The notes beneath the pieces are model-generated. The model had not been told where the DNA came from. It made no database searches and saw only the letters and a list, made by a program, of their open reading frames with translations. A stretch of 32,907 bases of DNA. Source: a virus. A program made the translations under genes and the position numbers. The DNA is taken from positions 1-32,907 of IMG/VR virus record IMGVR_UViG_3300043409_001004; one strand, 5' to 3'. Positions 1,966 through 32,907 of the stretch are shown piece by piece (the first letter of the stretch is position 1; each line of letters starts with the position of its first letter).

Positions 1966-4188
1966 ATGACTGAGTTGTTAGTTCGCAAGCGGAATGGTAA
2001 GACAGAAAATTTTGATCCAGAAAAAGTAAACAAGGTTCTGGAATGGGCTTGCGAAGGAATCACTGAGGTAAACCCTAGTGACGTTGCAATGAATGCAAAG
2101 CTTAGTCTTTTTAGTAAGATCAGGACCAAAGATATCCATGAGGTATTGATCCAGTCTGCCTTCAATCTTATCTCAGAAGAGACGCCAAATTACCAATTTG
2201 TAGCAGCAAGACTGAGAATCTATGCACTTCGCAAGGAAGTCTGGGGAGGCAATCTTCCTCCGCGACTGTATGACCACATCCGTCGAAATAAGAAAATTTA
2301 TGATGATGTGCTTCTAGAATCTTATTCGGAGTCTGAAATTCATAAGATTGACAAGATGATCAATCATGATAGAGATTATCGCTTCACCCACGCTGGCATC
2401 CAGCAGATGGTAGAGAAGTATCTAATTTGTGATAGGGCCACCAAGAAGGTTTTTGAGACCCCACAATTTGTATTCATCCTTATTCCTATGGTCCTCTATG
2501 CAAACCAAGAAAATCGCATGGAGTTGATCAAAGATGCCTACAACCATATCTCTAAATTCAAGATTAATCTACCAACACCAATTCTAGCTGGAGTACGTTC
2601 ACGTACAAAATATTACAGTTCGTGTGTACTGATTGATTGCGGAGACAGTCTTGATTCGATCTTTACAACCGCCATGGTTGCTGGTAAATACACCGCACGT
2701 AGAAGCGGTATTGGTGTTAATATGGGTCGTATCAGAGCAGTTGGCTCATCCATTCGCGATAGTGAAGTCATTTCTACTGGACTTATTCCATTCCTACGTG
2801 TGATTGAGAGCACTGTTAAGTCTACCTCACAAAATGGCCTAAGAGGTGGTGGGGCAACAATTTCTGTACCTTGGTGGCACTACGAAATCGAGGATGTGAT
2901 TGTTCTTAAGAATAATCGTGGGACCGATGACAATAGGGTCAAAAAACTAGACTATACAATTCAATTAGATGAAATCTTCTATGACAGAGTCAAGAACGAC
3001 GAAGAAGTAACCTTGATCTGTCCACACGAGACCGACATTTATGAGTACTGGGGAACTCCAGAGTTTGCCCAGAAGTATCTAGAGGCAGAGTCTAAGCCTT
3101 TAAGACTTAAAAAGGTAGTAAAAGCACGCGATCTTTTCTTTTTACTGGCAAAAGAGCGTCTGGAGACTGGCCGAATCTATGTGATGAACATGGACAATTG
3201 TGCCAATAGTAGTTGGAATACTCCTATTCGTATGTCGAATCTATGCTTAGAGATTTTACACCCCACAACTCCACTACATTCCGCAACAGATGAAGATGGA
3301 CGAATTGGGATTTGTATTCTATCATCTATTAATCTTCTCGAAACAAAAAGAGAGGATATTCCAAATGCTTGTCAGGTAATAGTTTCGCTTCTGAATAGTT
3401 TGATTGAATATCAACTTTACCCATTTGAAGCCGCTAAGAGATTCTCTCAGTGGACAAGATCAATTGGGGTAGGAGTAACTAACTTTGCCGGATGGCTCGC
3501 CTTTCAGGGTCTGAACCATGAATCGCCAGAGTCGGTAAAGAAGGCAAATGACTTGATGGAACTCATCCAGTATAGCCTCCTAGAAGCCTCATGCGAAGAC
3601 GCGAAAGTCCGAGGCGTGGCAAAAGACTTCCAGCTATCCAAATACTCGCAGGGGTGGCTTCCATGCGATTCTCATAAGGATCTCCCAGAAGATATCCAAT
3701 TTGAATTAACACAGGATTGGGAAGTACTTCGGGAAAAGATTGCAGAATTCGGATTGGCCAATTGTACCCTAACAACAATTATGCCTGCTGAATCAAGCTC
3801 TGTCGTCCATTCTTCTACAAACGGAATTGAGCCAATCCGTGCCTTTATGACTGAAAAGATTGCTAAGAATGGGGTTAAGAAGGTTCTAACTCCAGAATTC
3901 CCGAAGCACAAAAAGAATTATGTGCTTGCGTGGGACATGAAATCTAACCTAAACTCTATTAAGATCGCTGGTGCTCTTCAGAAATGGATTGATATGTCCA
4001 TTAGTTTTAATACATATCTTAATTACACTCATTATGAAGGTGGGGAAATTCCTATATCTGTTGTTGTACAAGATATTATTACTGCACACAAGTATGGTCT
4101 TCGTACTATGTACTACAACAACACCCCAAATGATAATGAGGAAGCGGATGTATCAAAGGGATGTGAATCAGGAGCGTGCAGCATATGA
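1966..4188 (+). CDS. nrdA: Ribonucleoside-diphosphate reductase class Ia, alpha subunit
   Basis: This is the catalytic subunit that reduces ribonucleotides to deoxyribonucleotides for phage DNA synthesis. At 740 residues it is close to E. coli NrdA. An ATP-cone fills roughly residues 4-90 (VRKRNGKTENFD). By comparison with E. coli, the redox cysteines are C220 and C450, the radical-site motif SNLCLEI gives N425, C427 and E429, and the radical-transfer tyrosines are Y716-Y717. The tail ends CESGACSI, supplying the thioredoxin/glutaredoxin-reduced pair C733 and C738. GGAG at 1957-1960 supports the ATG. The stop overlaps the nrdB start (ATGA). All key residues are present, so it should be active. 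Confidence 0.97.
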   Translation: MTELLVRKRNGKTENFDPEKVNKVLEWACEGITEVNPSDVAMNAKLSLFSKIRTKDIHEVLIQSAFNLISEETPNYQFVAARLRIYALRKEVWGGNLPPRLYDHIRRNKKIYDDVLLESYSESEIHKIDKMINHDRDYRFTHAGIQQMVEKYLICDRATKKVFETPQFVFILIPMVLYANQENRMELIKDAYNHISKFKINLPTPILAGVRSRTKYYSSCVLIDCGDSLDSIFTTAMVAGKYTARRSGIGVNMGRIRAVGSSIRDSEVISTGLIPFLRVIESTVKSTSQNGLRGGGATISVPWWHYEIEDVIVLKNNRGTDDNRVKKLDYTIQLDEIFYDRVKNDEEVTLICPHETDIYEYWGTPEFAQKYLEAESKPLRLKKVVKARDLFFLLAKERLETGRIYVMNMDNCANSSWNTPIRMSNLCLEILHPTTPLHSATDEDGRIGICILSSINLLETKREDIPNACQVIVSLLNSLIEYQLYPFEAAKRFSQWTRSIGVGVTNFAGWLAFQGLNHESPESVKKANDLMELIQYSLLEASCEDAKVRGVAKDFQLSKYSQGWLPCDSHKDLPEDIQFELTQDWEVLREKIAEFGLANCTLTTIMPAESSSVVHSSTNGIEPIRAFMTEKIAKNGVKKVLTPEFPKHKKNYVLAWDMKSNLNSIKIAGALQKWIDMSISFNTYLNYTHYEGGEIPISVVVQDIITAHKYGLRTMYYNNTPNDNEEADVSKGCESGACSI

Positions 4189-6188
4189 GAAGTGTTCTTA
4201 ATACAGTCGTAGTAGATACAACAAAACAGCCCATGTTCCTAGGAGAAGGACTCTCTCTACAGAGGTATGACAAGTGTAAGTATGAAATCTTCCTCACTCT
4301 GTTCAAGAAACAGCTTGGATTCTTCTGGCGACCCGAAGAGATCTCTCTTGTTAAGGATCGTGGCGACTACAAGCAACTGACAGAGCATGAAAAGTTCATC
4401 TTTACATCAAACCTAAAATTCCAGACGATGATGGACAGTGTGATCGCTCGTGCTATTCCAAATCTTACTCAGTATGTAAGTTTGCCAGAACTTGAAGCCT
4501 GCATGAATATTTGGGCAGCATTTGAAACAATTCATAGCTACTCCTACAGCTATCTGATCAACAATGTCTATCCTGACCCATCTGAAGTCCTAGACAGCGT
4601 CCTAATGGACTCTGAGATAGTAAAGCGTGCTAACTCGGTTTCTTGGGCTTTTGACGCACTAGCATTCGATGCGAGCGAAAGACCGATAAAGGAAAGAATC
4701 TATCTTGGACTTATGTCCACCAACATTCTTGAGGCTGTTAGATTTTATGTGAGCTTTGCCTGTGCTCTCGCTTTCGAGCAGAATAATAAAATGTGCGGAA
4801 ACGCACAAATTATCAAATTGATTCGAAACGATGAAGCATGTATGAGTGACGATACAGAAATATTAACCCCAAATGGTTGGGTTAAATTTCCAGAACTAAA
4901 AAATGAAGACTTAGTCGCACAATATACCTTGGATGGTAAAATAGAATTCGTACTGCCGAATAAGGTAATACGAAAAAGCCATAATGGGGATATGATTAGA
5001 TTCAAAAATGCTGTCGGTCATATTGATATGTTACTTACACCAGACCATCGTGTAATTTATGAGAATCTGGATGGAAACTTCGTAGAAACTACTGCTGACT
5101 CTTTTAAACCAAATCATCTCAAGAAAATAGTTGTGTCTGGAGAAGCCTGTGGTAAGAGAGAAGAGATATCTACTTACGAAAGGTTCCTAATAGCCTTACA
5201 GGCCGATGGAACAATAAGAGATACTGATGTAAGGGACGGAAGCAGGTCAGGTTACCACTGCGTCTCATTCTGCTTAAAAAGAGATAGAAAGATAGTACGA
5301 CTTGAGTCAATTCTTTCCGATCTAGGATTTTCATACTCTAAGTCAAATCCAGACAATAGAGGTAGGACTACATTTTATGTATCAGTTCCTGTAGAACACC
5401 TATTGACTAAAAATTTCTCAGAATGGATAAAACTAGAAACAATATCATCTAATTGGTGCAAGGGATTTATTGAAGAATTGATGAATTGGGATGGGTCTTT
5501 GATCGAGAGTAGACCAGAGTACCTCTATTACTCTTCGTCAGTAGAATCAAATTCTATTATGGCTCAAACAATAGGTTGTTTGGCTGGATATAAAACATAT
5601 ATTTTTCAACAGGAAGATTCCAGAAAATCCTCATATAAGACTATGCACAGAGTGTCCTTCCAGACAGATAAACGTACACAGTCTGGCCAGTCCCTCAAAA
5701 AGGAGACTGTCGACTACAACGGGATTGTATATTGCGTTTCAGTTCCGTCTGGAATGTTTTTGGCCAAAAGAAACGGCGGAATTTTCGTGACAGGGAACTG
5801 TCACATGTCTATAACCCAAACTATTCTAAAGTACATGAGAGATAATGACGAGGAAGGCTTTACCGACGTTGCCACTTCATGTAAGAATGAAGCAACTCAA
5901 ATGTTCTTAGAGGCCGCAGAAGAAGAAAAGGCATGGGCAACCTACCTGTTCAACAATGGCGGCATGATCGGTCTCAATGAGAAAATAATGCATCAATATA
6001 TCGAGTCTCTAGTAGACAAAAGATTAATTGGTGCTGGTCTTGACAAATATTTCGGGACGAAAAATCCAATTAGTTGGCTTGAAGCCGACAGTCGGGGAAA
6101 ACAGACCGCTCCACAGGAACAGGAGATTATATCCTACAAAGTAGGAGCCTTCAAAAACGACCTATCTAACGCTAAATTGGAGTGGTAA
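4185..6188 (+). CDS. nrdB: Ribonucleoside-diphosphate reductase beta subunit, interrupted by an intein
   Basis: This is the radical-generating diiron partner of NrdA. The precursor is 667 residues: a 218-residue N-extein, a 320-residue intein and a 129-residue C-extein. Spliced length is 347, similar to phage NrdB. By alignment with E. coli, the iron ligands are D84, E114, H117, E183, E217 and the His right after the second junction; the radical tyrosine is Y121. The intein sits between ligands five and six (RNDEA/CHMS), so the precursor cannot form a normal iron site until spliced. ATG at 4185 is chosen because GGAG at 4171-4174 is 10 nt away and gives an ATGA overlap with nrdA. The GTG at 4176 is too close to that site. 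Confidence 0.95.
   Translation: MRSVLNTVVVDTTKQPMFLGEGLSLQRYDKCKYEIFLTLFKKQLGFFWRPEEISLVKDRGDYKQLTEHEKFIFTSNLKFQTMMDSVIARAIPNLTQYVSLPELEACMNIWAAFETIHSYSYSYLINNVYPDPSEVLDSVLMDSEIVKRANSVSWAFDALAFDASERPIKERIYLGLMSTNILEAVRFYVSFACALAFEQNNKMCGNAQIIKLIRNDEACMSDDTEILTPNGWVKFPELKNEDLVAQYTLDGKIEFVLPNKVIRKSHNGDMIRFKNAVGHIDMLLTPDHRVIYENLDGNFVETTADSFKPNHLKKIVVSGEACGKREEISTYERFLIALQADGTIRDTDVRDGSRSGYHCVSFCLKRDRKIVRLESILSDLGFSYSKSNPDNRGRTTFYVSVPVEHLLTKNFSEWIKLETISSNWCKGFIEELMNWDGSLIESRPEYLYYSSSVESNSIMAQTIGCLAGYKTYIFQQEDSRKSSYKTMHRVSFQTDKRTQSGQSLKKETVDYNGIVYCVSVPSGMFLAKRNGGIFVTGNCHMSITQTILKYMRDNDEEGFTDVATSCKNEATQMFLEAAEEEKAWATYLFNNGGMIGLNEKIMHQYIESLVDKRLIGAGLDKYFGTKNPISWLEADSRGKQTAPQEQEIISYKVGAFKNDLSNAKLEW
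4839..5798 (+). mobile_element. Intein with LAGLIDADG homing endonuclease in nrdB
   Basis: This in-frame 320-residue insertion begins with Cys (CMSDDTEILTPNGW) and ends in VTGN before a +1 Cys. The block B-like motif is LLTPDHRVIY. The LAGLIDADG motifs are FLIALQADGTIRD and FIEELMNWDGSL. The block F-like segment is VYCVSVPSGMFLAKRNG. These are the hallmarks of a homing-competent protein-splicing element. The residue before the terminal Asn is Gly rather than the usual His. Its codons look more AT-rich than those of the flanking extein. Both endonuclease motifs keep their acidic residue, so it may still be active. Confidence 0.95.
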
Positions 6189-25104: not shown

Positions 25105-25582
25105 GATTCAGCCTGACGATGTCTTATACCTGACCGCCACCATTAAGACATGTCATATAAAGACAATTCTTGAATTTGGCGGTCTAGATGGATTTTCGGC
25201 AAGAGTATTCTGCGAGGCTGGAGCCAGAGTATGGAGTATAGATGTCAATCCGTTCAGTATTGACCATCCTAGTCATACTATGATAACGAAGAATATAGCC
25301 GATTTACAACCAGACGAAATTGGTCAAAAAATTGACATGGTGTTCTTTGATGCCCATTGCTATAAAGCCCAGACAGATTGTCTTGAAAGATTCAAGGAAG
25401 CTGGACTTATTACCGACGAGACACTTTTAGTGTTTCACGATACTGGTGGGAGTTGCATACATCAGATATCAGAGAGATTGATGGTGAACGATTTGCTGTG
25501 CAGCAATTATAGTTGCCTCCACATAAAAACCGAGAGAGGTCTAAGTGTCTGTTGTAAAACCCCACTATTGGACATCCTATGA
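25094..25582 (+). CDS. Class I SAM-dependent methyltransferase-like protein
   Basis: The 162-residue product has the Rossmann motifs of SAM methyltransferases: motif I ILEFGGLDGFSARVF, an acidic end to strand two (VWSIDVNP), IDMVFFDAHC as motif IV and LLVFHDTGG after strand five. Among known groups it is most like Methyltransf_24-type enzymes, which often act on sugars or small molecules in glycan clusters. AGGA precedes the ATG by 8 nt. The start of its SAM loop is FGGLDG rather than GxGxG. Its end overlaps the next gene by 4 nt (ATGA). Confidence 0.75.
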   Translation: MGFEIQPDDVLYLTATIKTCHIKTILEFGGLDGFSARVFCEAGARVWSIDVNPFSIDHPSHTMITKNIADLQPDEIGQKIDMVFFDAHCYKAQTDCLERFKEAGLITDETLLVFHDTGGSCIHQISERLMVNDLLCSNYSCLHIKTERGLSVCCKTPLLDIL

Positions 25583-26532
25583 ATTGGCCCAAATGTAGTT
25601 GTGACGCACCGGGATGGTGCAATCGGCACTTTCAAAACAAAAGTACTAAAGAGTGGGCACTTTGTCTTAAGCACGAGGGCCACAGGCACAGCCTAGACTC
25701 TCAGTTCGGTATATTGCCAGCCCAAATGACGGAGGCCCAAAAAAACGCAGTCGTGAGGCATGTGGAGGCCCAAAAGACTTTTGCAAAATTCAACCACGAG
25801 TACGATCCAGAGTTTTTAAAACGAACTAAGATATTACTTCTTGGTCATACACAGAATCAGTATTCAGGCGAGAACAGAGACTACTTAGAGTTTCGCCTAT
25901 TACAAGATCTAGACTTGGGTATCTACAGACAGTATCAAAATAACTGTTTCTCTGAATCTAGAATGTATTTATCTGAGATCCCAGACACCGAATACGTTGG
26001 GACAGTAACTGCTTCTTGGAATCAAAAGTTTGACCAAAATAGGATAGACGAATTCCATAATTGGGAAAACACAAAGGTGCTATTCAATAGTGGAGATAGG
26101 AATATCGTTCTTACCTCGGAAAAGTCGATGTTCAAGCATGACTGTATCTTTGATCTATTCAGCGATAAAGAAATCGTCAGAGACTTCAGCGATTTCGCCA
26201 TCTCTCTAACTGGCGAGATCTGTAATTTTGGCCTGTGGTCGAACCAAATTATTTGCCATAGGAGCATTTATCTAAAATTGCAAGAATTCCACAGAATGGC
26301 TTTTCCTTTGGTCGTTGAGAAGATACACTCATACAACCTAAGAGCACTCAAATGTCGCATCCTTCATGGGCAAGATGCCTCGAACCTCTATTTTACTGAA
26401 GGGTTTGAGAATAGAAAAGCTGGCCTGTTCTTCGAGTTTTTGACAAATGTATGGGTCTCTTGTCAAAAAGACCTTATTATTTTACCGAATGCTTCCCGTA
26501 AAAAAGAATGGTACGATAATACGCCCAAATAG
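25579..26532 (+). CDS. Protein with N-terminal Cys/His module, 317 aa
   Basis: Residues 6-32 read C-x-C-x5-C-x2-H-x11-C-x2-H (C6, C8, C14, H17, C29, H32), a likely metal-binding unit also found in the neighbouring minus-strand protein. The rest is soluble alpha/beta. Near the end, FGLWSNQIICHRSIYLKL and ENRKAGLFFEFLTNVWV faintly resemble DUF4422-like glycosyltransferases, but no catalytic acid pair was identified. It starts in an ATGA overlap with the methyltransferase-like gene and is the last plus-strand gene, so it may belong to the sugar cluster. Function unknown. Confidence 0.6.
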   Translation: MNWPKCSCDAPGWCNRHFQNKSTKEWALCLKHEGHRHSLDSQFGILPAQMTEAQKNAVVRHVEAQKTFAKFNHEYDPEFLKRTKILLLGHTQNQYSGENRDYLEFRLLQDLDLGIYRQYQNNCFSESRMYLSEIPDTEYVGTVTASWNQKFDQNRIDEFHNWENTKVLFNSGDRNIVLTSEKSMFKHDCIFDLFSDKEIVRDFSDFAISLTGEICNFGLWSNQIICHRSIYLKLQEFHRMAFPLVVEKIHSYNLRALKCRILHGQDASNLYFTEGFENRKAGLFFEFLTNVWVSCQKDLIILPNASRKKEWYDNTPK

Positions 26533-26534
26533 AC

Positions 26535-26981
26535 CTACCATTTATTGTCTGGGCACTTGCTACTGGCCCAACTTGTTTTAGTTGGCAAATGACAACCGCA
26601 TTTAGAACATCTGTCACCCGCCAAGAATGGGCATGTTGCACAAATGTCTAATCTTGATTGTTTTACTTCTTCCGGAACGTGTAAGAGTCCCGACTTTACA
26701 TGTTGGCCAACCGCCGATGTCAAGTTTTTGGCTTGCTGCCATAGAGATGGCATCGCCTTCGGCACCTCTTGAGGAGCCTCCTGAGGAATTGGCTTAGCCT
26801 CCTCCTTTTTAGTTTTACAGTCTATAAACCTTTGGCCCGGTCCACGACAATCTTCCCAAGACTGAAAATATCCCGGATGGGTTTGACACAGCTTATGCTG
26901 ATGAGGAGTTTTGTTGACTCCGTGCCTTGAGCAGAGGCCCGCGAAAATACACTCGCATCCAGTTTTTTTATCCTCACTCAT
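26535..26981 (-). CDS. Cys-rich small protein with two metal-binding modules
   Basis: In 148 residues there are 12 cysteines. The N-terminal module (C9, C11, C17, H20, C32, H35) has exactly the spacing of the neighbouring plus-strand protein. A Glu/Pro/Lys linker and an amphipathic stretch (residues 78-107) follow. The C-terminal module has C114-x2-C117, C125-x2-C128-x-C130 and C143 (ICATCPF, RCSKCGCHL, SKCP), a spacing typical of zinc ribbons or Fe-S sites. It is the last gene of the minus-strand unit and starts in an ATGA overlap with the GIY-YIG gene. Zinc or Fe-S binding is likely; role unknown. Confidence 0.7.
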   Translation of the reverse strand: MSEDKKTGCECIFAGLCSRHGVNKTPHQHKLCQTHPGYFQSWEDCRGPGQRFIDCKTKKEEAKPIPQEAPQEVPKAMPSLWQQAKNLTSAVGQHVKSGLLHVPEEVKQSRLDICATCPFLAGDRCSKCGCHLPTKTSWASSKCPDNKW

Positions 26982-27745
26982 ATATTACTCATACTATCAA
27001 TGTTAAGATTATTAAAAATACTTTTTTGATTCTTATTCGGATTTCTCTTGATCCATCTGAGAACAGTCCTATCACTTACTCCAAAAAATTTCGAAGCTTC
27101 TCTTGTGGTCTTAAATATTATTCTAGATCTATTAGTATATACTACTAATATAGGAAGACTAAAGACTTTCCCAAAATTTGGATTTAGACTTCCAAGCTTA
27201 GATACAGATTTTTTGTGCTTTTCCTCGTCTGAATTTTTCCTGCCATATGCTGGACTATCCTTTCCTGTCTTGCTATAAAAATAATTCTTATTCCCAGTAT
27301 TATGCAGGCTTATTTTCTTTTTTGTCTCGTCTGATAACTTCGATCCTGTTCTATATGATTTGATCGCGGCTATACATGCCTCTGACGGTTTTTTGCCCTT
27401 ATTAGCTAAAGATAAAGCCTTACGGTGTGATTCGGTTTTAGGAAGGTCCCTAAAGGGACAATCTGCACTTTTGGACAAGTTCAAACACTGATCAAAGCTA
27501 AAATACATGTCTATGTAGGTCTGTTCAGTTCCAGATAGTTCATCCTTCTCCTGTAGCTCTAAGACTTGAAAATCAAATTTTAGATATTTATTATATACGT
27601 TTTGCATTTTTTCGTTATGGTGGCTATTGGTCTTGAGAGAATTTAAATGCTCTCTTCTCCTTTTATTTAGGTTCTTACTACTTCCTATATAAAAATATTT
27701 ATCAACAAAAATTATATAGATTCCACTGTTATTTCCTTTTATCAT
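26978..27745 (-). CDS. GIY-YIG homing endonuclease with NUMOD modules
   Basis: The 255-residue product starts with the GIY-YIG nuclease core (SGIYIIFVDKYFYIGSS, NKRRREHLNSL, Glu in SGTEQTYIDMYF). Repeated NUMOD3-like segments follow (LANKGKKPSEACIAAIK, SKLSDETKKKISLHNTG, GRKNSDEEKHKKSVS), then a NUMOD1-like helix-turn-helix (TREASKFFGVSDRTVLRWI). GGAG 5 nt upstream supports the ATG. The gene is visibly AT-rich against its neighbours and sits 16 nt after the giant gene, as a mobile free-standing endonuclease would. No intron boundary was seen. Confidence 0.93.
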   Translation of the reverse strand: MIKGNNSGIYIIFVDKYFYIGSSKNLNKRRREHLNSLKTNSHHNEKMQNVYNKYLKFDFQVLELQEKDELSGTEQTYIDMYFSFDQCLNLSKSADCPFRDLPKTESHRKALSLANKGKKPSEACIAAIKSYRTGSKLSDETKKKISLHNTGNKNYFYSKTGKDSPAYGRKNSDEEKHKKSVSKLGSLNPNFGKVFSLPILVVYTNRSRIIFKTTREASKFFGVSDRTVLRWIKRNPNKNQKSIFNNLNIDSMSNI

Positions 27746-27761
27746 ATTCGCTCCAATATAC

Positions 27762-30700
27762 TTAAGCTTCCGTAATCGTTACGTGCAACAAAGAAGTGTC
27801 ACACGAAGTATACTGATTTGCATCCAAACACCCACACCCATTCAGATAATCCGCTAAGTGATCGGCTTTACCTGATGGTCTTAGTATAGCACAATCTCCG
27901 ATGCGAAGTTTCCAAGAATTTCCCAAAACCGTGCAGAGGGTAGATGTCGTACAGCATCCTGTTGTGGAGACATCACTAAAGTACAGATAATCTCCACATT
28001 GATAGGCTGGTACTGTAATACTGCTGGTAGAGATGAAACCATCAGATCCACAAACTTCGTAACTGCTCCCAACTCCAAGTGGTGTAGCTCTGTTACAAGC
28101 AGCCTTACAACCTACTGGTATACCAGCATTTGCACCAATTTCGTAACTCACACCACCATTGCTTGTCAGGTAACCATAACTAGCCACTCCAGTATTCGCT
28201 ATAAGTGCTGTGGCTGTTCCATCTCCCGCTCCAGCACAACAGGTAGTACAATTAGTAGTATTACATTTTGTAAATGTTCCTGTTCCATCTACAGCGTGAT
28301 ACGATGCTCTAGGTGCTGTTAGTGTGAGGCATACTGGCTTCGGATGTAATTCATAGTATTCTGATGTAGCTCCTCCGCAGGTACTTGTGGCACATGAGCA
28401 CGGAGGTTGTTTAATAAAACCCTTACAGGCAACACTAGGAACTCCGTCTAGTACATACTCTAGCATCGTCGGAGGGTCTGTAGGAACTTCTCTTCTTCTT
28501 AGAACAGATTCACAACATTCAACATCTACTAAAATTTTGAATGGATTGAATAGACAGTTATCAGATTCTACAGTTGTAGTCTTGTCTAGATAGTATCCCA
28601 TACTTGTTCTACCATCTATCAAGAACGTCTTTGGTGCATGGATTCCGCCATCTATGGATAGTTTTGAGTGAGTATTCATTATGTGGCAGTCGCCACTAGA
28701 AATGATGGTACAGCTCTTGATATCTTGCTTATATCTGAATAAAGAAGTATTTACTCCAATCAGTGGTAGATAGTCTACTACTTTAATTACTACATCATCT
28801 AGCCCAACATTCTGCGTGATGGTAGTCTTAATCGTTTCATCACATGCATGGATAAATCTTGTATTTTCTGCTTCCAAGATGATATCTGGCATTTCGTCAT
28901 TACCAAAATCTTGATAGCCAGTATACCAGTCTCCCTGCACCAAAGATGAGTGAGATGTACACAGTTGCAATGAACCGAATCTGGAAACCTTCGTTCCAAC
29001 CGCATACTTCCTTCGAGGAAAGAACATCTTATTACAATAGAAATCAGCCCCACATTCGACATGGTCCTGAAGACAGCTATGGAATCTATTGGTCCAGTCG
29101 ACTCCAAATCTTCCAGTTGGTGTCAAATATTGACCCGATGTGAAAATGGAGGTATTGACATAGGATGTTCCTGTCCCACATGGATTGATGGGTACAACAG
29201 GATCAGAAGTTGGATCTCCTAAGTAGACGGCTGGAAAATATTTGCTATTTGGGAAGCCAGATCCGTAAAAGAGATTGAAGTAATTCCACAATCTATCTTG
29301 TCCAGATGCCGCAGTATTCAAGATGAAGTCTTGATTCGCATATAGTCCATCAGAATAATGTGCATTACAAACTCCTCTATATGATACTATCCCAGTCCCG
29401 CTTAATACTGGCTCTGTATAGTAGGCTGGGGTTACTGAATCTGTAGGTGTCGCAAATGGTATCTCAACACAGGTTGTACCAGTTCCAGCAGGATATCTAT
29501 AGGCTCCAATTTGTTTAGGCTGACATGTAGAAACTGGCGGGGTGCCAACAGCAACTATTTGTTCCCACGCTCTTCCATGGGAGTGATATTCTCTTGCCAC
29601 ATAAAGATCAAACACACCAGAGGTACATTCAATTTTATTGACAATCATAACCTCTGGGAAACACGATCTAAGATTTACGGAGACACCACTATTTGTAGCA
29701 TATCCAGACCATGGAATTGGGTCTCCACAAGAGCCAGCCTGAGCACGAGAATCATGGGCACATGTTCCCGTACACTGGTCAGGAGTTAAACTTTCACAGG
29801 TGACTGTCCCATCCGCCAGTCTATATGGTTCTTCGTATTCATAGTATACGCCAGTTGCCAACATATTTGGGCCAGTATGCCATGAGCAAGCAGATTCTCC
29901 AGTCACATAAGATGGGGTAGACGAGAACGGTATTTGAGAGTTTGAATTTAGATAAGTGACTCCTACGGAACCGTATTCACCAGAATAACTGACGGCAACT
30001 ACTATTCCAGATGGGAAACTTCCAGAACAAGCAACTCCGGTAGAATAAACTAACGTCCTATTACCGTCAAAATCTATCAGAGTAGTACGCATCAACTGTA
30101 AATCACAGTCACACATACATGGATTTTGATATTCGTCAGGAAAGGCTCCTTCAATTTTGTCACATGTATCGCAAACTATGCCAGCACAATCGCATAGTGG
30201 CGTAGAAACTCCTGAAGTACATGCGGCACATGGATAAAACGCTCTCTGTCCATATGAATTTGTGCCTGCACACCCATATTCACTAAAGTAGGTATTACAA
30301 CCAAATACATGTTCTTCCGCCATAGCACTTAACACTTCACTTGGGGACTCCATTAGGGTTCCGAGTTGTGTCATTAAATGTTCTGGAATTAGTTCAAATA
30401 TTGGCTCATTTCCACTTGGTACTAAAATAAAGCTTGATTTTAATTCAAGATCTGAGGCTGCTGATGGATAGTGGTGACCACAACCAGCATTCGTATACAT
30501 CAAATCGAGTACGTTTTGACTTCCAGTGATCTGAGATAACATCAAATAGTTTCTCAAGATTCCGGTAGCATCGGCTGGAACTAGAAAATCATGGGCATCC
30601 GCACAAGCCAACTTGAACGAAGCATAAACAGAAAAGCCAGAAAATCTCTCATATGGAACATCTGAGAAATAGTCATTAAGATAATCCTGAGCACAATTTC

Positions 30701-32907
30701 TTACATTGATGTATGAATTATTTACATTCCAAGTTGTCCAACCAGCAGAGATATTTGTACCTTTAAGCGGTACGTTAATCAGATTAAACTGACCAGACAT
30801 ACACGTACATGTATTCCCTGTATATGGATTAACGACATCTCTAAAGTCTTCACCATCTACTAGGCCACTACATGGGATACCAAAACCAGATGTACAATTG
30901 TACGTTGGATCATAAGACGTGCCCCTGTACTTGCAATGATTCCATCCATATTTTTCTCCTCTTGCGTGAGAGAACTTGGCATCTAAACCAACTGCATCTA
31001 ATACTAGGTCCCCCTGCGTTGCTTCTATGCTTCCGCACCCAATACAATCATCTGTGTGGTCAATCTCTACCAAGAATGGGACTTTACTTGTCGGCCATCC
31101 TGATGCCCTTGTAGTACAAAGGTCAAAATTACGATATTGTAGAGTCCCACCGCAATTTCTTGTGTAAGTGTCGGTCTTGTATCTGAAGTATGGTGCTGCT
31201 AATCTTCCATCTGGTCCAGCGAGTCCCCAGAATGGATAATTCCCAGATGGAGAAAAGGCCCCAGAAACTGATCCGGTTTCGTGGACATATGGGTTATTAA
31301 AATTCCAGTACATCGGCTGTGGAGAAGATGGGGCTACTCCAGTATTTCTATAATCTCCCGCTTGCACAAGGGAGGAGAACGCCGAGGTGATTACTTCTCT
31401 ACGGTCATGATATTGATTGCCACATAGGTTTCTAATAAATCCATAGGTCGTATATGGTTGTTTCGTCAAACACGCATACGCAGAAGATGGAATTGGACAA
31501 GTATTTAGTGTTCCACTCTCGCATTCACTAGCCCATTTGTATTGCCATAGTATATCTTGGCAACCATACTCATTAGGATATAGATCAAATTTTGGAAACG
31601 TAGGAAAAGTGACAGGAGATGGAATCATCACTTTGTTTTCGGGAGTAGAATTTCCCGCAGGAGAATCTACGCAGGCACATGGCTCTGCGGCAATATTTGC
31701 ACCCCAAGCATCATTCAGATTAATGTACATATGTATCTCTTGGCCAGCTAAACCTCTTTTAAGGTCTACAACGCTGGTAGGAGCAACATATGGATGACCG
31801 CTTCCATTGAATTGACAGTTGTCTTCGTAATTACATCCCTTGTATACTATTCCAAGTCTAGATACTTGATTCGTTAAGTATTTAAACGGCCCATCATTAC
31901 ACTCTTGATAGTAGTAAGACTGCGTAAAGCAATCTGGGAATATGGACAAACTTGTCTTTTTACTGTAACAAGTTCCATTGTTTCCTTTTGTCGTATTCTG
32001 CTTAGAACTGTTCCGAGTAGATGTATCGAATCGATCAGTCTCATAGAATGGTCCGTAGTATGGTCTTTCCCGTTCAAAAACTGGAAACCCGCTCTCAATA
32101 AGGACCCCAGTAGATGTTACTGTTGGATAAGTTCTATCCGTGCGTACGGTATTTGCAGAAACTACTACCTCAGGTTGACCAAGCCCATAATCATACCTAT
32201 TTTCTATGAATCTATTAGATTGAACAATATTTTTGTTGTTGTTGAATATACGACCAAGATCAGCATGATAATTAGTGAGATTATTCATCTTCTTCGTATC
32301 GTTAGATACGTTGTAGGCAAATCCTCCACAGCAACTCTCTGGATCGTAAGTCCCTAGTGCAGTCCAACGATTAAGGCCAGTCTCATTGACATAGCCAGAA
32401 CCTAGAGTTCCTACTACTTTGCATCCACTTGTATTAACGTCAAATACAACGTATGTTCCATTCAAGTAGGTTCCACTTAGTCCGACAACACTTCCATTTA
32501 TTAAGCCAGACGCCATCACACCGTTGTATTTTGGTCTCATCTCGACGAAATCTGTAACGCCAGAATTTCGGTAAAAGGTAGCTATTCCTGTATATGCTGC
32601 CGGAATAGACCCGTCTCTTAAACAACCTCTATCTCCAGATACTCTAATCTGGAATGGATCGTAAAACAGCCCGTATGTATCTCCACGAAGAATCTCTTGC
32701 TTCGGGGTTCTATCACACTCACTAGCTATGCCAGAATCCATATAGACTGTATTACAGTCGTCAAGATCAACATATCTCCAAGCACCTGTTCTATTCTTAA
32801 AGACCGTATCTGTCGTAGAGATCTTTGTTCCATAGCCGAAATTCTCTGGGAACTTCTTATAGACATTCGCCGGATCGGTCGTGCTGCAAGACTCAAGGTC
32901 AGCAGTT
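27762..32907 (-). CDS. Giant cysteine-rich protein, N-terminus outside window
   Basis: The frame is open to the window edge, so over 1714 residues are present and the ATG at 32741 is internal. About 80 cysteines occur, roughly 5 percent, many as CxC or CxxC groups (LCDCAGIVCDTC, CMCDCD, CSCATSTC, CNTTNCTTCC). Tyr, Gly, Ser, Thr and Asn are abundant, with many short beta-like stretches and NxS/T sites. No transmembrane segment or enzyme motif was found. Size and composition suggest a virion structural or adhesin/fibre protein stabilised by disulfides or metal, facing the outside after lysis. It is followed by the GIY-YIG and Cys-rich small genes. The family was not recognised. Confidence 0.8.
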   Translation of the reverse strand, partial: TADLESCSTTDPANVYKKFPENFGYGTKISTTDTVFKNRTGAWRYVDLDDCNTVYMDSGIASECDRTPKQEILRGDTYGLFYDPFQIRVSGDRGCLRDGSIPAAYTGIATFYRNSGVTDFVEMRPKYNGVMASGLINGSVVGLSGTYLNGTYVVFDVNTSGCKVVGTLGSGYVNETGLNRWTALGTYDPESCCGGFAYNVSNDTKKMNNLTNYHADLGRIFNNNKNIVQSNRFIENRYDYGLGQPEVVVSANTVRTDRTYPTVTSTGVLIESGFPVFERERPYYGPFYETDRFDTSTRNSSKQNTTKGNNGTCYSKKTSLSIFPDCFTQSYYYQECNDGPFKYLTNQVSRLGIVYKGCNYEDNCQFNGSGHPYVAPTSVVDLKRGLAGQEIHMYINLNDAWGANIAAEPCACVDSPAGNSTPENKVMIPSPVTFPTFPKFDLYPNEYGCQDILWQYKWASECESGTLNTCPIPSSAYACLTKQPYTTYGFIRNLCGNQYHDRREVITSAFSSLVQAGDYRNTGVAPSSPQPMYWNFNNPYVHETGSVSGAFSPSGNYPFWGLAGPDGRLAAPYFRYKTDTYTRNCGGTLQYRNFDLCTTRASGWPTSKVPFLVEIDHTDDCIGCGSIEATQGDLVLDAVGLDAKFSHARGEKYGWNHCKYRGTSYDPTYNCTSGFGIPCSGLVDGEDFRDVVNPYTGNTCTCMSGQFNLINVPLKGTNISAGWTTWNVNNSYINVRNCAQDYLNDYFSDVPYERFSGFSVYASFKLACADAHDFLVPADATGILRNYLMLSQITGSQNVLDLMYTNAGCGHHYPSAASDLELKSSFILVPSGNEPIFELIPEHLMTQLGTLMESPSEVLSAMAEEHVFGCNTYFSEYGCAGTNSYGQRAFYPCAACTSGVSTPLCDCAGIVCDTCDKIEGAFPDEYQNPCMCDCDLQLMRTTLIDFDGNRTLVYSTGVACSGSFPSGIVVAVSYSGEYGSVGVTYLNSNSQIPFSSTPSYVTGESACSWHTGPNMLATGVYYEYEEPYRLADGTVTCESLTPDQCTGTCAHDSRAQAGSCGDPIPWSGYATNSGVSVNLRSCFPEVMIVNKIECTSGVFDLYVAREYHSHGRAWEQIVAVGTPPVSTCQPKQIGAYRYPAGTGTTCVEIPFATPTDSVTPAYYTEPVLSGTGIVSYRGVCNAHYSDGLYANQDFILNTAASGQDRLWNYFNLFYGSGFPNSKYFPAVYLGDPTSDPVVPINPCGTGTSYVNTSIFTSGQYLTPTGRFGVDWTNRFHSCLQDHVECGADFYCNKMFFPRRKYAVGTKVSRFGSLQLCTSHSSLVQGDWYTGYQDFGNDEMPDIILEAENTRFIHACDETIKTTITQNVGLDDVVIKVVDYLPLIGVNTSLFRYKQDIKSCTIISSGDCHIMNTHSKLSIDGGIHAPKTFLIDGRTSMGYYLDKTTTVESDNCLFNPFKILVDVECCESVLRRREVPTDPPTMLEYVLDGVPSVACKGFIKQPPCSCATSTCGGATSEYYELHPKPVCLTLTAPRASYHAVDGTGTFTKCNTTNCTTCCAGAGDGTATALIANTGVASYGYLTSNGGVSYEIGANAGIPVGCKAACNRATPLGVGSSYEVCGSDGFISTSSITVPAYQCGDYLYFSDVSTTGCCTTSTLCTVLGNSWKLRIGDCAILRPSGKADHLADYLNGCGCLDANQYTSCDTSLLHVTITEA

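Follow-up and report, generated by a model that had tools for sequence, protein, structure and literature searches.

The window analyzed here, a viral stretch of 32,907 nucleotides that makes up the whole of its source record, ends within a gene for a giant cysteine-rich protein. This protein belongs to a genuine and unusual family, outside any described family, which we file as one of distal tail adhesion proteins; on balance it is probably a receptor-binding or tail-tip protein of a very-long-tailed phage, held mainly by intramolecular short-range disulfides. Phage structural proteins normally avoid Cys because they are assembled in the reducing cytoplasm, and an 1800–2400-residue protein that keeps 80–100 Cys over deep divergence would represent one tail component built by extracellular rules. 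The analysis suggests a disulfide-held attachment device without a counterpart among cultured phages, and raises the testable question of when and by what phage disulfides form and whether they gate infection.

The cysteine-rich gene and its family

The gene is read as a single open frame of 1714 residues without a stop that is still open at the window edge. It contains 84 Cys (4.9%), in agreement with the roughly 80 (5 percent) of the first-pass annotation. Comparison with two full-length homologues (L006, 1862 residues and 90 Cys; L002, 1871 residues and 91 Cys) shows that ∼147 N-terminal residues lie beyond the edge, giving a full length of ∼1860; the extent first assigned is thus sound as an open frame and incomplete as a gene. 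An internal ATG at 32741 was rejected as the start, as the relatives place the true start that many codons upstream. The frame is a real gene, since the relatives keep it open at 66–69% protein identity to the window protein, with a dN of ∼0.26 and a saturated dS for the window–relative pairs and a dN of 0.15 and a dS of 1.02 for the two relatives compared with each other. The full-length members (start MADMLSGCYECSRNC...) have no N-terminal signal segment.

Scans of IMG/VR yielded 14 distinct members, including the window protein, in ∼21 contigs. Full-length members have 1812–2370 residues and 81–103 Cys (4.0–4.9% by gene). L034 differs in carrying the gene as two adjacent ORFs of 1593 and 613 residues, together containing 81 Cys (∼3.7%), owing either to a sequencing error or to true fission. 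A tblastn search with three family members against 50,697 GenBank-derived phage records gave no match, and no relative of the large protein was found in bacterial and archaeal genomes. As initially annotated, the protein matches no known family: neither the window protein nor the full-length relatives gave a significant profile match in Pfam, PHROGs or NCBIfam, PDB sequences gave none at E ≤ 1 and segments of the protein gave only chance-level, single-member matches (E of 0.05–0.07). A known Cys-rich fiber or baseplate family was sought in these four collections and none was found, nor was any adhesin, carbohydrate-binding or fiber domain recognized in them. The family can also serve as a marker for a phage group to which nothing in the searched phage collection is closely related.

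AlphaFold models of the two halves, built from 12 sequences, have mean pLDDT values of 41 and 34, too poor for judging Cys pairing, and the sole moderately confident patch is a small β-barrel (Table 1). A Foldseek search with the first-half model, which is a weak test of fold because of the pLDDT of 41, gave nothing at E ≤ 0.001 (T5 pb9 at E = 0.2).

Table 1. Positions of the features discussed; coordinates refer to the window unless a contig is named
Feature	Location	Strand	Basis or remark
Cys-rich tail-end protein, C-terminal 1714 of ∼1860 residues	27762..32906	-	Open frame and homologues L006 and L002
Densest Cys cluster, window residues 893–934	30105..30230	-	9 Cys in 42 residues
Region containing C702 and C738 (L006 C853/C889)	30693..30803	-	Both absent in L014 and L034
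Small β-barrel patch (approximate), L006 residues 251–337	32346..32597	-	Predicted model, pLDDT ∼70–80
148-residue Cys-rich DUF6171-like companion	26535..26981	-	Accompanies the large protein in 14/14 members
GIY-YIG/NUMOD3 homing endonuclease	26978..27745	-	Between companion and Cys-rich genes; absent there in L002 and L006
Neighbor of the companion	25579..26532	+	
Ribonucleotide reductase small subunit	4176..6188	+	
Full-length homologues	L006 9563–15151; L002 9563–15178		
Split Cys-rich gene	L034 8001–12782 and 12834–14675	+	
835-residue protein occupying the slot	L067 13670–16177	-	Unrelated to the Cys-rich protein; 35 Cys (4.2%)
Glycosyltransferase homologue	L067 5390–8191	+	
Thioredoxin-fold protein	G001 3052–3678 (-); L053 1018–1758 (-); L054 665–1345 (+); L064 10001–10630		
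Papain-like looking ORF	P0010 (L007 3691–4608, -); L053 1758–2423 (-); L064 9098–9991		
Protease–thioredoxin fusion (G015)	L055 246–2084	+	

Position in the tail module

The longest relative contig (G001, 139.9 kb) contains a terminase (phrog_2, 3e-23), a tape measure protein (phrog_28, 4.5e-27) of 2090 residues with zero Cys, proteins of 537, 1186 and 554 residues and then the Cys-rich gene, which is the last in the tail module. This place is fixed in 14/14 members and supports a phage tail-module protein, in line with the earlier description. The 1186-residue protein is probably the hub, and the 554-residue protein, here called the linker, has a conserved C-terminal Cys motif. Bacterial and archaeal genomes gave one linker fragment, on a 5-kb contig assigned to an alphaproteobacterial bin, which is too weak for naming a host. 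The terminase is 23–30% identical to those of Microcystis phage MaeS, Bacillus phage Slash and Lactococcus phage 949, all of which have long non-contractile tails, so that the phages of this family are likely to be siphoviruses; no cultured virus is close to them, and the 1784-residue tail fiber of MaeS has only 4 Cys. Siphophage tail ends share the order of tape measure, tail proteins and large terminal protein with an interchangeable distal module, but those compared (Dit, hub/Tal and central fiber, as in λ gpL/gpJ and T5 pb9/pb3/pb4) have no sequence match to the proteins described here.

Cys accounts for 4.8% of the Cys-rich protein versus 0.77% of 31 other plus-strand ORFs, called mechanically in the head–tail block of the same phage (G001). 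The latter figure is close to the whole-phage values for T4 (0.9%) and A511 (0.7%; PMC10811340).

The 148-residue companion is encoded on a strand that differs among the 14 members. It matches phrog_13558 (1.7e-10) and scores 25.2 bits against Pfam DUF6171, under the Pfam cut-off of 27; these families are those of the companion only and not of the large protein. It is possibly an assembly or docking partner of the latter. The companion and its neighbor share an N-terminal CxC...G.C.RH...LC motif that is probably metal-binding. The homing endonuclease probably lies outside the Cys-rich system.

Conservation and paired gain and loss of cysteines

The first-pass annotation had described clustered CxC and CxxC units recurring along the protein, a description that does not survive comparison of the window protein with shuffles: CxC occurs seven times versus 4.0 expected (p = 0.10), CxxC four times versus 4.1 and CC four times versus 4.0. 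The densest cluster is mildly unusual (p = 0.03); six corresponding positions are invariant in a 12-member alignment and a conserved CxCxC lies within it. The N-terminus of the family has four near-invariant Cys (C-x2-C-x3-C-x5-C).

The non-random property of the cysteines is their conservation rather than CxC/CxxC spacing. All but one of the 84 window Cys are identical in both close relatives, compared with 94% of Trp, the next best residue, 50% of Ser and 40% of Thr. At 33–39% overall identity, 73–82% of Cys are retained, above any other residue. Across the 14 members, at 33–40% identity, 56 of 90 Cys positions are invariant and 65 of 90 have at most one member missing, whereas the invariant fractions are 7/19 for Trp, 30/175 for Gly and 3/31 for His.

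Presence patterns were compared among the 24 variable homoplasic Cys columns. Six pairs share the same pattern versus 0.5 expected (p = 4.5e-4), and three of the six lie within 40 residues of each other versus 0.03 expected (p = 5e-5). These p-values are indicative, because the null draws each column independently from prevalence-matched columns of other residues and the tree is small, with 14 tips. The near-neighbor pairs (559/587, 853/889 and 1119/1141 in L006 numbering) are spaced by 22–36 residues. The second of these corresponds to C702/C738, within the window the strongest candidate for a disulfide pair. Shared binding of one metal could in principle give such patterns too, but the paired gain and loss, together with the lack of a CxxC excess, makes a disulfide signature the simpler reading. 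Of the disulfide-built fiber originally envisaged, conservation and paired gain and loss thus support the disulfide-partner behavior, while the absence of internal or fiber repeats from the large protein speaks against a repetitive fiber. Cys totals are odd in some members (91, 89, 103 and 81) and therefore not every Cys can pair within one chain; parity differs among members and was left out of the evidence.

Replacement of the module in one relative

G020, a 123.6-kb contig reached through the search for the thioredoxin-fold protein described below, retains the 1186-residue protein at 64% identity and the linker at 64% identity up to residue 253, after which its second half is gone. Neither the Cys-rich protein nor its DUF6171-like companion is found; the genes that flank the slot on its far side are 76–84% identical. 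The slot is occupied by an 835-residue protein that is unrelated to the Cys-rich protein according to BLAST, HMMER and hhalign and has no relatives in any collection searched; the tail-end slot thus remains Cys-rich despite the change of occupant. Because all 14 members have the companion and its loss here coincides with that of the large protein and the distal half of the linker, these three move as one unit. An exchange of this kind at the end of the tail typifies phage host-recognition modules, and that in G020 is the strongest hint, resting on one contig, that the Cys-rich protein belongs to such a module. Location at the end of the tail cluster, after the tape measure and the putative hub, and modular replacement between close relatives, two features expected of a siphophage receptor-binding or tail-tip protein, are both found.

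A link between UDP-galactopyranose mutase and the module was considered and rejected as not general (6/15 contigs). The glycosyltransferase homologue in L067 has 933 residues versus the usual ∼551, and the segment inserted after QYSN resembles an intein.

Proposed function and alternatives

We infer that the Cys-rich protein is present in the virion, binds a receptor, contains disulfides rather than metal and is oxidized after lysis. The chain would fold with reduced Cys in the host cytoplasm and would be mounted at the tail end through the linker, the first half of which would dock on the hub while the second half fits the Cys-rich protein; the small companion may help in assembly or docking. 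At lysis, on leaving the reducing cytoplasm, the ∼90 Cys would oxidize to give a rigid, protease-resistant adhesin. Disulfide formation at this stage is plausible, and the bonds would stabilize a non-repetitive, surface-exposed protein.

The closest precedent is the Agrobacterium phage Milano, in which experimentally proven disulfides tie tail components and receptor-binding proteins (PMC10811340). As in the present family, its tail-module proteins are rich in conserved Cys, pairing here being suggested by the sequence patterns. Milano has many inter-chain Cys and a contractile tail, whereas here one protein with 4.8% Cys stands among Cys-poor neighbors, and no enrichment of the Milano type is seen in the remaining virion-block ORFs (0.77%). 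Milano nevertheless lends some weight to an unlikely yet appreciable alternative, in which the protein is a tail-tip or baseplate-like component with inter-chain disulfides forming a latch that is reduced or broken for DNA release, receptor contact being optional. The gene adjoins that of the putative hub, the linker carries its C-terminal Cys motif and the odd Cys counts of several members would permit inter-chain bonds. Paired gain and loss at 22–36 residues favors intra-chain bonds instead, and the structural proteins of Milano are generally Cys-enriched (average 2.1%; PMC10811340), unlike the virion-module ORFs considered here.

The paired losses also bear on whether the Cys clusters hold zinc or iron in a metal- or Fe–S-binding tail protein that would act as a scaled-up counterpart of λ gpL. 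The four-Cys Fe–S site of λ gpL itself is far smaller. Such a role, consistent with this precedent, with the dense nine-Cys cluster and its CxCxC and with the four near-invariant N-terminal Cys, seems improbable given that Cys are spread along the entire chain and appear and disappear by twos instead of fours, that CxxC and CxC lack overall enrichment and that so few His are invariant. Very improbable is a late protein that stays out of the virion and is either exposed on the host or released from it, such as a surface mimic or exclusion factor: the Cys content is of the extracellular type, and these genomes also export other proteins and have numerous sugar genes, but full-length members lack a signal segment and the place in the tail module never varies.

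An exported thioredoxin-fold protein

A protein of 209–246 residues that combines a hydrophobic N-terminal stretch (a signal or anchor segment) with a CxC-rich linker and a thioredoxin-like domain (active-site motif CGPC, CPPC or CSPC) was found with strong scores in nine of 19 contigs by an alignment-based search, and G020 was also positive. It is present in eight of the nine contigs longer than 66 kb; the exception, G002, is a 74.6-kb fragment with a tail locus identical to that of G001. Pfam detects the thioredoxin-like domain in two members, and in G001 only the alignment does. None of the phage records contains a match to this protein. The contigs carrying the Cys-rich family contain no Erv/ALR, DsbA or VKOR oxidase, and glutaredoxin matches were all below the cut-off, two of them falling on the thioredoxin-fold ORF itself.

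This protein is a possible partner of the Cys-rich protein. The link is a lead only, because descent from one phage lineage would explain the co-occurrence without any functional connection. A phage redox system, in which a giant disulfide-built adhesin is matured or unlocked by the exported thioredoxin-fold protein, is a rather unlikely proposal, consistent with the retention of the protein even where the adhesin has been replaced by another Cys-rich protein. If it were true, bonds could be formed or reshuffled at lysis, or reduced at the surface of the host, setting off entry.

The fusion in G015, a marginal match in the same search, combines a trypsin-like protease with a thioredoxin-like domain (Trypsin_2, 1.1e-15; Thioredoxin_2, 0.0027). 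Directly upstream of the thioredoxin-fold gene is a papain-like looking ORF with the motifs WQHxM and, in some, NSWG; it has no Pfam hit. Elsewhere in the window, an intein (TIGR01445, 1.1e-5) interrupts the ribonucleotide reductase small subunit, starting near residue 222.
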